Assembly: GCF_000165675.1 (NCBI RefSeq)
Contig: NZ_AEIZ01000026.1
Location: 62,001-126,000, forward strand
Reading direction: 5' to 3'
DNA: 64,000 nt
From: Leuconostoc fallax KCTC 3537
GTDB lineage: Bacteria; Bacillota; Bacilli; Lactobacillales; Lactobacillaceae
This document shows positions 10,632-63,966 of the stretch, piece by piece. The notes under the pieces are model-generated. The model ran no database searches, was not told the DNA's origin, and saw nothing but the letters and a program-made list of their open reading frames with translations. Made by a program: the position numbers and the translations under genes. Each line of letters opens with the position of its first letter. The stretch's first letter is position 1.

Positions 10632-10793
10632 TGTTAGGCACCTCCAAATTTATTTTTTGTGAACAAGAAGAAAAGCAGGATAGAAATAATATTCCACCCT
10701 GCTTAAACACTTGTAGTACTGACGTACAACGTGTATCTGCCCAACAATAACTATCATAAGGCGAGAAGCGGGTGCTTCTACTTGTTTCAACAG
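10632..10793 (-). promoter_or_regulatory. infC operon leader RNA (L20-leader type) with internal attenuator
   Basis: About 160 nt of untranslated leader before infC. It contains a GAAGCACCCGCTTCTCGCC-like element, which resembles leaders seen before infC in Lactobacillales. It also has an internal hairpin AAGCAGG / CCTGCTT (10673-10704) followed on the minus strand by TTTTCTTCTTG, a transcription attenuator. In Bacillus, L20 binds such a leader and represses the operon; the same role is inferred here. Confidence 0.7.
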
Positions 10794-14225: not shown

Positions 14226-14475
14226 AAAAATCGCCCCTCTAGATATAAAATAAATATCTAAAGGGACGATTAACCGTGGTACCACCCAAATTTATGGACA
14301 ATGATGCATTGTCCATCCTCTACGACAGTATAACGGTGTCACCCGAAGTAGTTTTCTAATACATTACTCACCACTCACTCAAAGGTAGTCTTCATGATAC
14401 GCGTTGCTAATTCCCACCAAACATTAGCTCTCTTTGTAAACGCCATACAATGAAGTTGTCCTTATCAATGTTTAT
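14226..14475 (-). promoter_or_regulatory. T-box leader for thrS (threonine)
   Basis: About 250 nt between promoter and thrS. The T-box itself, GGGTGGTACCACGG on the minus strand (14274-14287), precedes a long terminator stem (14226-14270) ending in T. A candidate Thr specifier codon ACC (14384-14386) lies in GACTACCTTTGAG of stem I. Uncharged tRNA-Thr would bind the specifier and the T-box bulge and switch on thrS and the permease. Confidence 0.92.
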
Positions 14476-14482
14476 AGGTGCA

Positions 14483-43088: not shown

Positions 43089-43121
43089 AAAAAACTACAC
43101 CAATGTTTGGTATAGTTTTTT
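43089..43121. terminator. Terminator between the aldo/keto reductase and APC permease genes
   Basis: Stem AACTACACCAA / TTGGTATAGTT (one mismatch) flanked by A and T runs, usable from both sides. Confidence 0.8.
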
Positions 43122-43137
43122 ATATTAGAGGTATTAT

Positions 43138-44579
43138 TTACGAAGTGCTTAATTCTGTTTTTATTTTTATAGAATGCCGTGTTCCATAAAAAATATATAC
43201 AAGTACACCTATCAAAAACCAAAATCCGGCTAAAATTTTAGCATCAATGTTTAACTGAAAGAACAAAAATAATGAAGAAATTCCAGCTATGACAGGTAAT
43301 ACTGGATATAGCGGCATCTTAAATCCAGAATGATCGATATCATCACGACGCCGTAAAACTATAACCCCAAACGATATCATGGTAAAGGCAATAAGTGTTC
43401 CAGCAGAAACTAAATTAGTCAGCAAAGTTATTGGGAATATGGCACCCAAAATAATACTAATAATTGCTAATACGCTTAAAGCAATAGACGGTGTTCCTGA
43501 TTTATTAGTGCGTCCCATTGCTATTGGCAATAATCCATCTCTCCCTAAAGCATACATTAACCTCGATCCACCTAAAGATACGCCAATCAACATAGAAAAA
43601 ATACCAACAAGAGCTACAAGTGATAAAATATTAGCCACAAATAGGTGCCCCGATTGACGTAAAGCCCAAGCAGCTGGATCAGTAATATTAGTGTACTTAG
43701 TATATTTAAACATTCCAACCATAACCAATGATGCTCCAATAAAAAGCATAGTAGCTAACCCGAGAGTAGCAAAAATAGCTCTAGGTACTGTTCTTTGGGC
43801 ATTACGAGCTTCCGCCGCATTAGACGTCATCATATCAAAACCTATGTATGCAAAAAATATTTGTGAGGCACCAGCTATAATTCCAGACCAACCGAAGCGT
43901 GTACCTCCTTCATTTTCAGGAATAAAAGGATGATAATTATGGATATTTATTGCTGTTAGTCCAACTGCAATAAATAAAATAATTACTGCAATTTTACCAA
44001 CAACAAGCCAATTTTCTACTCGAGCAGTATCTCTAATACCACGCGATAACAAGAACCATACTATGAGTATGGCAATAACAGCAAATAAATCAAAAAACAT
44101 ACCTGCCTTGGGATTAAATGTGCCAGATATAGCTTTTGGTATACTAATGCCAAAAGTAGATAAAAATCCTCTAATATATGCTGACCAGGCTGAAGCTGAA
44201 TAAGCCAACGCAATTAAATATTCCGCAAGTAGTGCCCATCCTGCAACCCATCCCCAAAATTCACCGTAAATAATATTTGACCAAGTATATGCAGACCCTG
44301 CAAAAGGCAACGCCGATGAAAATTCGGCATAAGCTAATGCTGATAGTCCAGCGACAACGGCCGCTATAATAAACGAAATAGCCACAGCCGGTCCTGCATA
44401 GTTAGCAGCAACCACCCCAGGTATTATAAAAATAGCAGCTCCAACAACAGTACCTATACCTATTGCTGTTAATTCCTTAGTGCCTAAAGCATTTCCATCT
44501 AGACGTTGATCTAAGCGCGTATATTCCTTAAGCGATGCCTTTCGGCTAAATTTTCTAAAAAAGATATCTTTCCACTCAT
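43138..44579 (-). CDS. APC permease of the CAT/BcaP type (one frameshift)
   Basis: A 12-helix amino-acid permease with LGTKELTAIGIGTVVGAAIFIIPG and AYAEFSSALPFAGSAYTW, the pattern of cationic/branched-chain (YfnA, BcaP) transporters. As written, the frame opens at a TTG (44595) with an unlikely N-terminus. An ATG at 44579 in another frame starts MSGKISFF, and one extra T near 44560 joins it to RKFSRKASLKEYTR, giving 480 residues. It follows the Leu-leader-controlled PTS_EIIC_2 gene by ~56 bp without a visible terminator, so branched-chain amino-acid transport is a reasonable inference. Confidence 0.85.
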
Positions 44580-44635
44580 TACTACATATCCCCAAAACTA
44601 TTTATTAATTATTGCCAAGCTTATTTAAAGTGCTA

Positions 44636-45781
44636 TTAAATCATTTCCAAATGCAGCTGTTGCGGTTTTGCCCAACCCATTTTACGCATAATTCGATAGC
44701 CAACAAAAGATACAATCACCGGCACACCAACACCAATGCCCATATAAGCAGCAAAGGCAACTGGGTTTGAACCAGCTAATGCTAATGGTACGATAAATGA
44801 ATTAAAACCAATGCCTGCCATTGAAAAAGGTGCTGTGACATGGAAAACCATTGTCGCAATTGGTGCGGCAATTGCAGCACCAATCATTGGCGGTATGATC
44901 AAAGCTGGATTTTGTGTTAAATTAGGAAATTGAATTTTTGGTGTCACAATGCCTTGCGCAATCGTGGCACCAATTTTATTTTCTTGAAATGACATTGCAG
45001 GAAAGCCAACAAACACAGCTGTTGTCCCAATTAATATGGCACCAGCAGCTTCAGCTGAAGTGACACCGGTCGCACCAATTGCTACAGCCAACGCTGCCGC
45101 TGAGGCTGGTGTCATTGTCATTGCACCAAATGCCATCGCCACAACTGCTGTACCAACAATGGGATTTACAGCGACACTAGCAGCAATAAACTGCCCCACT
45201 GCTACCAAGAACGGTGTTGTAATCATTGCCAAGTAGTAACCTGACACAGTGCCAATAATAGTCGTCGCAGCTGGAACAATCACCATGTCCAAAGGCGTCT
45301 TACCGCTTAACCATTTACCAAATAGAACAGCAATCAATCCAGCAATCACCGCTGAAATAGGTTGCCCTGTTGTCATCACAGCTGATCCAGCAATTTGCGA
45401 ACTGGCATATCCTGTAGCCGTAATGCCTTGAACAGTTTTATCAGTAAAGAACACAGCATTAGCGCCGACAGTAGAGGCAGCCATAGCAGCAAACATGACC
45501 ATTGTATTGGTTTTCATTTGTGAAGCAATAGCAGCACCAAACGCTGCAGGTAACATGACTTTTGTAATCGCACCCATTTGTGCCATTGGTGCCCAATCAA
45601 TAAAACCAGCAATAGTCTGTAGCAACAGCCCCATACCTAATGTTACCAAAATAGCATTAGATACCGCTGCGCTGACGTTATAGATTGTCTCTTTTACAGT
45701 GCCGGCATGTCTATTCTTTTTGCCAATCATCTGTTGTACATTTTCTCTTTGTTGTGAAGCTGAATTCTGGGCCATACTCAT
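44636..45781 (-). CDS. PTS_EIIC_2-type membrane protein, copy A (Leu-attenuated)
   Basis: A 381-residue polytopic protein of the family labelled PTS EIIC (PF13303 type), with about ten hydrophobic segments. It has the blocks TTGQPISAVIAGL, SGKTPLDMVIVPA, MTPASAAALAVAIGA and VTPKIQFPNL. No EIIA, EIIB or sugar enzyme is nearby. A leader peptide ending in a run of Leu codons and a transcription attenuator precede it, which argues for a role in branched-chain amino-acid transport or homeostasis rather than sugar uptake. A close paralogue is at 62809-63966. A permease gene follows downstream. Confidence 0.85.
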   Translation of the reverse strand: MSMAQNSASQQRENVQQMIGKKNRHAGTVKETIYNVSAAVSNAILVTLGMGLLLQTIAGFIDWAPMAQMGAITKVMLPAAFGAAIASQMKTNTMVMFAAMAASTVGANAVFFTDKTVQGITATGYASSQIAGSAVMTTGQPISAVIAGLIAVLFGKWLSGKTPLDMVIVPAATTIIGTVSGYYLAMITTPFLVAVGQFIAASVAVNPIVGTAVVAMAFGAMTMTPASAAALAVAIGATGVTSAEAAGAILIGTTAVFVGFPAMSFQENKIGATIAQGIVTPKIQFPNLTQNPALIIPPMIGAAIAAPIATMVFHVTAPFSMAGIGFNSFIVPLALAGSNPVAFAAYMGIGVGVPVIVSFVGYRIMRKMGWAKPQQLHLEMI

Positions 45782-45833
45782 TCTCCGTTTCCTCTTTCAA
45801 AGCAATTCGTCCAACAAGCATATCGTGTATACA

Positions 45834-45951
45834 TAAAAAACGTCCCACGATTGCTCGTTAGGACGTTTGTCAATAATACATTTCCCTAACCAGCTACTAA
45901 ACTAACTTGGTGTCTAGTAGCTGGTATAACGCAAATAACAACCAACTAGAC
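45834..45951 (-). promoter_or_regulatory. Leu-responsive transcription attenuator
   Basis: Mutually exclusive pairings on the minus strand: segment 1 (45942-45951, GTCTAGTTGG) pairs with 2 (45912-45924, CCAGCTACTAGAC). Segment 2 pairs with 3 (45885-45899, TAGTAGCTGGTTAGG) over 10 bp. Segment 3 pairs through GTTAGG with CCTAAC of segment 4 (45857-45862). Segments 4 and 5 form the terminator (45839-45867, AACGTCC / GGACGTT with an inner ACGA / TCGT stem) followed by T6. Segment 1 begins one base after the leader stop codon. Stalling at the first Leu codons would leave 1:2 free to form, allowing the 3:4 antiterminator. Confidence 0.8.
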
Positions 45952-45952
45952 T

Positions 45953-46012
45953 CTAGATGAGTAAGAGGTTGAGGAGAAGTGTTTGATTCAAGCGAACATA
46001 TTGGTTTGTCAT
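45953..46012 (-). CDS. Leader peptide, Leu-rich (19 residues)
   Basis: Starts at an ATG 9 nt after AGGAG and encodes MTNQYVRLNQT then LLLNLLLI and a TAG stop. Six Leu codons (CTT CTC CTC, then CTC TTA CTC) and one Ile codon lie within the last eight codons. It stands directly before an attenuator, and is inferred to sense charged tRNA-Leu through ribosome stalling. Confidence 0.82.
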   Translation of the reverse strand: MTNQYVRLNQTLLLNLLLI

Positions 46013-46048
46013 GATTCATTTCTCCTATCTATTTTTATTATGCGTATA

Positions 46049-46077
46049 ACTATATCTTGATTATAATAAAATGTCAA
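46049..46077 (-). promoter_or_regulatory. Promoter of the Leu leader operon
   Basis: TTGACA (46072-46077), 17 bp, TATAGT (46049-46054) on the minus strand. Confidence 0.85.
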
Positions 46078-62598: not shown

Positions 62599-62667
62599 AT
62601 GTCATATTTAAACGCTAACAATTTCACAGCAATTATTGTGGTCAACATTATTGTCATTATTATTTGA
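62599..62667 (+). CDS. Leader peptide, Ile/Val-rich (22 residues)
   Basis: Starts at an ATG behind AAAGGA and encodes MSYLNANNFTA followed by IIVVNIIVIII and a TGA stop. Ten of the last eleven codons are Ile (seven, all ATT) or Val (three). Placed directly before an attenuator, it is inferred to sense charged tRNA-Ile and tRNA-Val. The layout, a run broken by one Asn codon, matches the Leu leader at 45953-46012. Confidence 0.85.
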   Translation: MSYLNANNFTAIIVVNIIVIII

Positions 62668-62808: not shown

Positions 62809-63966
62809 ATGAAGAATTCATACAAGAAGCACTCGGATCGTCCTGATCCCAAAGAATTACAGCCAGGTACCGGGCCGTTAACACGCCCAGAAGAAAAAAT
62901 GCGTGTTCGTGATTGGGTATATTCTGTATCTCAAGGCGTATCTAATACAATTTTAGCTGTATTGGGCATGGGCTTGCTATTAGCGATGCTTGGTGAGCAA
63001 CTCCACTGGCCTGCCTTACAAATGGCTGGTATCCAAGGCCAAAAACTTTTAGCACCTGCTTTGGGGATGGCCGTTGCCGTTATGCTTCGGACATCAACAT
63101 TAGTAACTGGTGCTAGTATGATTGCCGCCACTGTTGGTTCCAACGCCATCTATTTCACTGCTGCACCAATTTCAGGCGCAAGTACGGCCACTGGATGGGT
63201 TGCCTCTGGTAGTCATGCTTTGCCAGCAGGTTCCGCAGTTCTCACATCTGGTCAACCCATTTCAGCCGTTTTAGCTGCTGTAGTTGCTGCCGTTATTGGT
63301 AAGTGGTTAACAGGAAAAACACCCTTAGATATGGTATTGGTCCCATTGGCCTCAGCATTAGTTGGTTCCGTTGTCGGGCTTGGGTTAGCTACCGTCGTAA
63401 CACCCGCTTTAAATGCAGTGTCTAAAACATTAGCAAATACCATGCAAGTTAATCCAATTCTTGGTGCTATCATTGTATCGGTTGCTTGGTTTATTTTCTT
63501 AATGACGCCAGCCTCTTCAGCCGCCTTAGCTATTGCTGTTCAGTTAGATCCAATGAGTGCCGGTGCTGCGCTTATTGGAACAACAGTCGCCTTCGTTGCC
63601 TTCGCTGCAATGGCACCCATGCAAAATAATTTAGGTGCTAATATTGCACAAACAATCGTGACACCCAAGATTCAGTTTCCCAATTTACTTAAACGACCAA
63701 TTCTTGCTGTTGGTCCACTAGTAATTGCCGCCGTCATGTCTTGTATTGCAGTCGTCGTATTTCAATTTCAAGTACCGTATACAATCGGTGGTTTAGGTCT
63801 CAACAGTTTCATCGCGCCACTCACATTAACATCTACACCAAATAAACTACTTATTCTCATCGTATTTGGTATTGTTTTACCAGCAATACTATCATTTATT
63901 TATTATCGTTTCTTACAAACCATTGGTCAAACAAAACCCAACGACCTACACCTAGAAGAAGTTTAA
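62809..63966 (+). CDS. PTS_EIIC_2-type membrane protein, copy B (Ile/Val-attenuated)
   Basis: A 385-residue polytopic paralogue of the protein at 44636-45781, with shared blocks LTSGQPISAVLAAV, TGKTPLDMVLVPLA, MTPASSAALAIAVQ and VTPKIQFPNL. A charged cytoplasmic head of ~40 residues precedes about ten hydrophobic segments. GGGAGAACAAT precedes the ATG. The Ile/Val leader peptide and attenuator upstream suggest a branched-chain amino-acid role, in spite of the sugar-PTS family name. No PTS partner genes are in view. Any downstream operon partner lies outside the window. Confidence 0.85.
   Translation: MKNSYKKHSDRPDPKELQPGTGPLTRPEEKMRVRDWVYSVSQGVSNTILAVLGMGLLLAMLGEQLHWPALQMAGIQGQKLLAPALGMAVAVMLRTSTLVTGASMIAATVGSNAIYFTAAPISGASTATGWVASGSHALPAGSAVLTSGQPISAVLAAVVAAVIGKWLTGKTPLDMVLVPLASALVGSVVGLGLATVVTPALNAVSKTLANTMQVNPILGAIIVSVAWFIFLMTPASSAALAIAVQLDPMSAGAALIGTTVAFVAFAAMAPMQNNLGANIAQTIVTPKIQFPNLLKRPILAVGPLVIAAVMSCIAVVVFQFQVPYTIGGLGLNSFIAPLTLTSTPNKLLILIVFGIVLPAILSFIYYRFLQTIGQTKPNDLHLEEV

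Follow-up and report, generated by a model that had tools for sequence, protein, structure and literature searches.

A leucine-attenuated gene for an EIIC-fold transporter in Leuconostoc fallax and the possible place of its PF13303 relatives in branched-chain amino-acid supply

Why should a gene named after a sugar phosphotransferase system (PTS) component lie between a leucine-rich leader peptide and an amino-acid permease gene? The question is raised by a locus of Leuconostoc fallax KCTC 3537 within a stretch of 64,000 nucleotides (contig NZ_AEIZ01000026.1, positions 62,001 to 126,000), called here the window, whose own numbering is used throughout. The gene, here gene A (44636-45781, minus strand), encodes an EIIC-fold transporter of the family PTS_EIIC_2 (PF13303, Pfam E 6e-64), and a paralogue 45% identical to it, gene B (62809-63966, plus strand), is also present.

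The answer begins with the leader of gene A. A promoter of the form TTGACA-17-TATAGT (46077-46049, minus), with 11 of 12 consensus matches, is followed by an AGGAG (46026-46022, minus) and by a leader peptide ORF read from the sequence, MTNQYVRLNQTLLLNLLLI with its stop codon (46012-45953, minus); TTGAC occurs at the equivalent position in most orthologous gene A leaders. The peptide has 19 residues and ends in TLLLNLLLI, the Leu run of the ORF occupying 45979-45959 (minus), and an equally Leu-rich short ORF with a Shine-Dalgarno-like site arose in 4 of 2000 dinucleotide shuffles. Behind it, on the same strand, lie region 0 (GTCTAGTTGGT, 45951-45941) and region 1 (ACCAGCTACTAGAC, 45925-45912), which would pair with each other upon an upstream ribosome stall, then an antiterminator GCTGGTTAGG/CCTAACGAGC made of region 2 (45899-45885) and region 3 (45862-45853), and an intrinsic terminator (45868-45835) recognized from the fold and from covariation of the OFF structure. 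Leader and terminator together fold with -64.4 kcal/mol (z -5.3).

It is proposed that, when leucine is short, the ribosome would stall at the Leu codons of the leader, regions 0:1 and 2:3 would pair to give the antiterminator, and RNA polymerase would continue into gene A and the permease gene. When Leu-tRNA is sufficient, the ribosome at the stop codon would cover region 0, the 1:2 hairpin would form, and the 3:4 terminator would halt transcription. That is to say, the gene A product would be made only under leucine shortage. The pairings were examined in 15 sequences (the window, Leuconostoc and Periweissella). For the OFF structure (1:2 plus terminator), 98.7% of cells are paired, with 5 pairs changed on both sides and 0 of 500 shuffles as high; for the ON structure (0:1 and 2:3), 97% of cells are paired, mostly through invariant positions, and for 2:3 the figure is 99%, again largely invariant, which gives little covariation evidence.

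The short Leu-rich ORF upstream of gene A is kept in 25 orthologous loci, covering Leuconostoc, Fructobacillus, Convivina, Periweissella and two further relatives, and the codons of the Leu run vary by genus (CTC/CTT in Leuconostoc, TTG in Fructobacillus). Moreover, a covariance model built from 14 gene A leaders alone and run on 251 genomes also matched upstream of leuA-leuB-leuC-leuD in two Leuconostoc genomes, where the leader peptides end in INNTALLLNLLRQHLTS and INTALLLNLLRLP; this is an independent check of leucine specificity. A Rfam search of the leader gave no credible family, and a CodY-box search of the window gave 10 matches against 11.5 expected by chance. From these sequence features, gene A is almost certainly under leucine control, and the attenuation proposed in the initial annotation is upheld by the leader ORF, the mutually exclusive hairpins and the terminator. 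Elsewhere in the window, Rfam matches mark a T-box leader (14259-14477, minus) and an L20 leader (10663-10789, minus).

The same model also matches upstream of a NicO nickel/cobalt transporter gene in Leuconostoc (loci L308, L310 and L312-L314), with leaders ending in SLLYLLLS, SLLYLLLN or ALLYLLLN. Weaker matches, with Leu/Ile-rich leaders, stand before the suf Fe-S assembly operon (L309, L311 and L315); SufC, SufD and SufS are present at L311, and at L311 and L315 a regulator-like ORF lies between the leader and the operon. Fe-S clusters are required by LeuCD and IlvD.

Downstream of gene A lies a CAT/BcaP-like APC permease gene (43138-44595, minus, TTG start; PF13520 E 5e-56). As had been claimed, it is on the same strand, no terminator was seen in the gap between the two genes, and the protein is of the APC type that includes branched-chain amino-acid (BCAA) transporters: its best NCBIfam match is BcaP with 440 bits, which does not reach the equivalog cut-off of 690, so that by sequence it appears to be of the same broad type and is not assigned as BcaP itself. 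Its nearest solved relatives are 5oqt/6f34. The spacing of 56 bp given at first has to be corrected, for it apparently rests on ATG 44579, which does not share the reading frame of the permease; the in-frame start, TTG 44595, lies 40 bp from gene A. At the other end, a terminator hairpin read from the sequence (about 43089-43123) separates the permease gene from a convergent aldo/keto reductase gene. A permease orthologue occupies the same position at L043 (84% identity), and the pairing of gene A with an APC permease gene was observed in the window and in Periweissella beninensis only. In Leuconostoc, livJ of the livJHMGF importer is downstream of gene A in 7 loci, and in others gene A stands alone and is followed by a terminator-like hairpin. 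The unit of gene A and permease therefore stands for the window, but it is lineage-specific.

Gene B has a leader of its own, with an Ile/Val-rich peptide ORF, MSYLNANNFTAIIVVNIIVIII with its stop codon (62599-62667, plus), and a leader-terminator fold of z -8.1; none of 2000 shuffles was as good. The suggestion that one paralogue is tuned to Leu and the other to Ile/Val thus agrees with the two leaders. The branched-chain aminotransferase gene ilvE (64048-65088) follows gene B outside the window, starting 81 bp past it and 48 bases beyond the window end. No evident hairpin or terminator was seen in the gap, and ilvE would probably be switched on by Ile/Val shortage through read-through from gene B. 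In addition, LeuA, IlvC and IlvD were not found by a model search of this genome, which is 91% complete, and the same models match in 14 of 14 control genomes. With three genes missing, it is unlikely that this absence is an artefact of incompleteness, one lost contig being conceivable; the bacterium apparently cannot make branched-chain amino acids. Because ilvE is probably on during Ile/Val shortage while the synthesis of 2-oxo acids is apparently absent, the aminotransferase would be useful only with 2-oxo acids from outside.

As for the protein, the AlphaFold2 model of A (pLDDT 90, pTM 0.84) gives Z 17.2 over 313 residues against the EIIC of bcMalT, 15-16 against PtsG and 12.5 against ChbC, well above unrelated entries. 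Profile-profile alignment to EIICs, with alignments on both sides (a single EIIC sequence is uninformative), reached 88% probability and 97% in global mode and supports homology; a family-profile sequence search of solved structures gave no match. Judged by the model, the gene A product is a genuine EIIC-fold protein, and the family annotation is right as to the fold. Sugar EIICs bind their sugar through the Glu of GITEP plus a His. Among 51 members of the PF13303 family, no conserved core His or Glu was found, and the conserved polar residues are S227, N268, K282 and N287, with K282 in 50 of the 51. In the profile alignment, which is uncertain in its second half, GITEP comes to lie opposite a gap; the idea that the GITEP Glu is replaced by Lys282 is a guess, and Lys282 may have a functional role.

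Of 151 sampled Lactobacillaceae genomes, 116 have a PF13303 match, which passes the curated cut-off in 106; for a sample drawn from the whole phylum the figure is 77 of 348. In the tree, each of A/B, C and D comes out as a single group, with support of 96, 93 and 92. Of the 92 distinct proteins of the A/B subfamily, 20 in six genera, besides the window's own, have a branched-chain aminotransferase gene next to theirs; the order ilvE, A-type gene, L-2-hydroxyisocaproate dehydrogenase gene is found at L110 and L165 (nearest solved relative of the L110 dehydrogenase, 1hyh), and a PanE-family reductase gene lies downstream of the A/B-type gene at L092 and L064. For 65 of the 92, neither a scored enzyme nor a Liv gene lies close by on the same strand, some loci being incomplete. 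In the C subfamily, a class I aminotransferase is a neighbour in 18 of 27 and a D-2-hydroxyacid dehydrogenase in 15 of 27, the usual order being aminotransferase, dehydrogenase, C; in the D subfamily, a 2-hydroxyacid dehydrogenase or PanE reductase is found in 18 of 26. No conserved neighbourhood was seen around PF13303 genes in Clostridia. Other neighbours that recur, namely upp, thioredoxin genes and a formate-THF ligase-like gene, were regarded as mere synteny, since no role for them was evident; in genus g18 (L070-L075) and in two Bacilli outside the family (L220 and L222), the gene immediately downstream of the PF13303 gene is thioredoxin-like.

Of the 1578 ORFs in the neighbourhoods, glucose-type EIIA/EIIB profiles matched only one, and that one is on the opposite strand; the 25 Pfam families met most often in 106 neighbours include none of the PTS. 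In the window, no EIIA, EIIB or sugar genes were seen among the scanned genes, which are part of its ORFs, in keeping with the statement that none lie near either copy. The initial annotation had named a consistent association with EIIA/EIIB or sugar operons as what would speak against it; the neighbourhood survey found no such association, and amino-acid and keto-acid enzymes instead. Its wider proposal, that PF13303 proteins work in BCAA homeostasis, is borne out for the A/B subfamily only; next to C and D lie genes for PanE-family reductases, class I aminotransferases and D-2-hydroxyacid dehydrogenases. The open-access papers searched yielded nothing about what PF13303 proteins do, nor about any member of the family as a branched-chain keto-acid transporter.

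Further evidence comes from the control of A/B-type genes elsewhere. In genus g22, the gene is preceded at L102 and L158 by a T-box with the specifier CUC (Leu), and at L160 by a weaker T-box; the search at L168 gave nothing reaching E 0.01. Two unrelated RNA mechanisms thus both point strongly to leucine within the A/B subfamily. B orthologues in further genera have Ile/Val or mixed leaders, many A/B genes in other genera have no recognised leader, and no leader was found in the scan of C- and D-type genes. The A/B-type genes at L101, L103-L107, L111 and L115, for which no leader was recognised, have in common an AT-rich sequence near the promoter (ATTTTAAT-like) that is possibly an operator. 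At L102, L158 and L160, an Ile (AUC) T-box on the plus strand precedes a gene that resembles 2-keto-4-pentenoate hydratase and is divergent from the PF13303 gene; its Leuconostoc homologue (L038-L041, L044-L046) is preceded by a leader rich in Ile/Val and, in several species, is itself directly upstream of a BrnQ-type gene, and the L038 protein has no Pfam match.

What, then, do these proteins carry? The regulation, gene linkage, predicted fold and lack of nearby PTS partners were obtained by comparison, and for the substrate, direction and ion coupling of the gene A transporter we infer the following. The gene A product would be a PTS-independent secondary transporter on the EIIC fold, and the A/B proteins would carry branched-chain 2-oxo acids, or related 2-hydroxy acids, inward, where an aminotransferase, in some species with a hydroxyacid dehydrogenase, would convert them to Leu, Ile and Val; uptake of the amino acid itself would fall to the permease next to A, or to the Liv ABC importer in other species. 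A part of A/B in BCAA supply is very probable, and uptake rather than export is probable; this import of 2-oxo/2-hydroxy acids for conversion to BCAA is somewhat the likelier reading of the substrate. Against it weigh the 65 A/B proteins without the scored neighbours, the many A/B genes of other genera in which no leader was recognised, the lack of a conserved context in Clostridia, and the 91% completeness of the genome, which makes the absence of the pathway less than certain. Tentatively, and with slightly less than even confidence, it may be extended to the whole of PF13303 as PTS-independent EIIC-fold carriers of amino-acid-derived 2-oxo/2-hydroxy acids, branched-chain for A/B and perhaps aromatic or bulky for C and D, which would serve keto-acid salvage by BCAA-auxotrophic lactic acid bacteria under translational attenuation, the conserved Lys in contrast to the carboxylate of sugar EIICs marking a switch from sugar to carboxylate.

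The main rival holds that A/B import the branched-chain amino acids themselves, as an additional BCAA carrier on the EIIC fold. Control by Leu or Ile/Val starvation would suit it, as would the LivJHMGF and APC permease genes that adjoin A/B and the BrnQ gene nearby, and this linkage to amino-acid importers does speak against 2-oxo acids as the substrate. However, it leaves unexplained both the order of ilvE, A and the L-2-hydroxyisocaproate dehydrogenase gene and the C/D operons with 2-hydroxyacid dehydrogenases, PanE reductases and aminotransferases, and a second amino-acid importer in the unit of gene A would be redundant; we consider it unlikely, though it deserves to be kept in mind. The BCAA role proposed for A/B at the outset is accordingly retained, but by sequence evidence the substrate is likely a 2-oxo or 2-hydroxy acid and not the amino acid.

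Rather improbable is the opposite direction, in which the family would export 2-hydroxy/2-oxo acids from amino-acid breakdown for redox balance. It would account for operons of aminotransferase, 2-hydroxyacid dehydrogenase and PF13303 gene, and it has been reported that Leuconostoc produces 2-hydroxyisocaproic acid from leucine (PMC5589888); yet A/B are turned on by shortage of Leu or Ile/Val, when the loss of carbon skeletons would harm. For the C and D subfamilies, in which no leader was found, export is quite possible. That gene A is a true sugar EIIC, under leucine control by happenstance, is strongly disfavoured and hardly credible: the EIIC fold (Z 17.2 to bcMalT) and the Pfam name speak for it, but the sole EIIA/EIIB match among the 1578 ORFs is an opposite-strand neighbour, the core has no conserved Glu or His, the linkage is consistently to amino-acid and keto-acid genes, and the Leu leader is common to leuABCD.

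Since the Pfam name of PF13303 is that of a phosphotransferase-system EIIC, carriage of 2-oxo/2-hydroxy acids, if true, would re-annotate a large family and would make it an example of an EIIC fold that functions independently of phosphorylation. Lactic acid bacteria would also have a dedicated route for flavour, antifungal and host-signalling acids such as 2-hydroxyisocaproate and phenyllactate, and the function would be directly testable with a small gene set.

Compared with known systems, the leader of gene A resembles the ilv-leu attenuator of S. aureus (PMC5794164) in its Leu-rich leader peptide, alternative hairpins and terminator, the RNA layouts being compared in outline and not base by base; the difference is that it governs a transporter, in a genome that gave no match to the biosynthetic genes. 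The Leu T-box of genus g22 is like those before the transporter genes of the 2008 survey (PMC2494555), whose table contains ABC, APC, DAACS, LIVCS, MFS, NHAC and NSS transporters and no EIIC-type. The permease (43138-44595) is by sequence of the same type as the BcaP and CAT-type APC permeases (GkApcT, 5oqt), below the BcaP cut-off. Finally, gene A and its relatives are like the EIIC glucose superfamily (bcMalT, PtsG, ChbC) in fold and in family-level profile similarity, whereas gene A has neither EIIA/EIIB nearby nor a conserved core Glu/His, and the A/B genes are regulated by Leu or Ile/Val and lie beside amino-acid and keto-acid enzymes.
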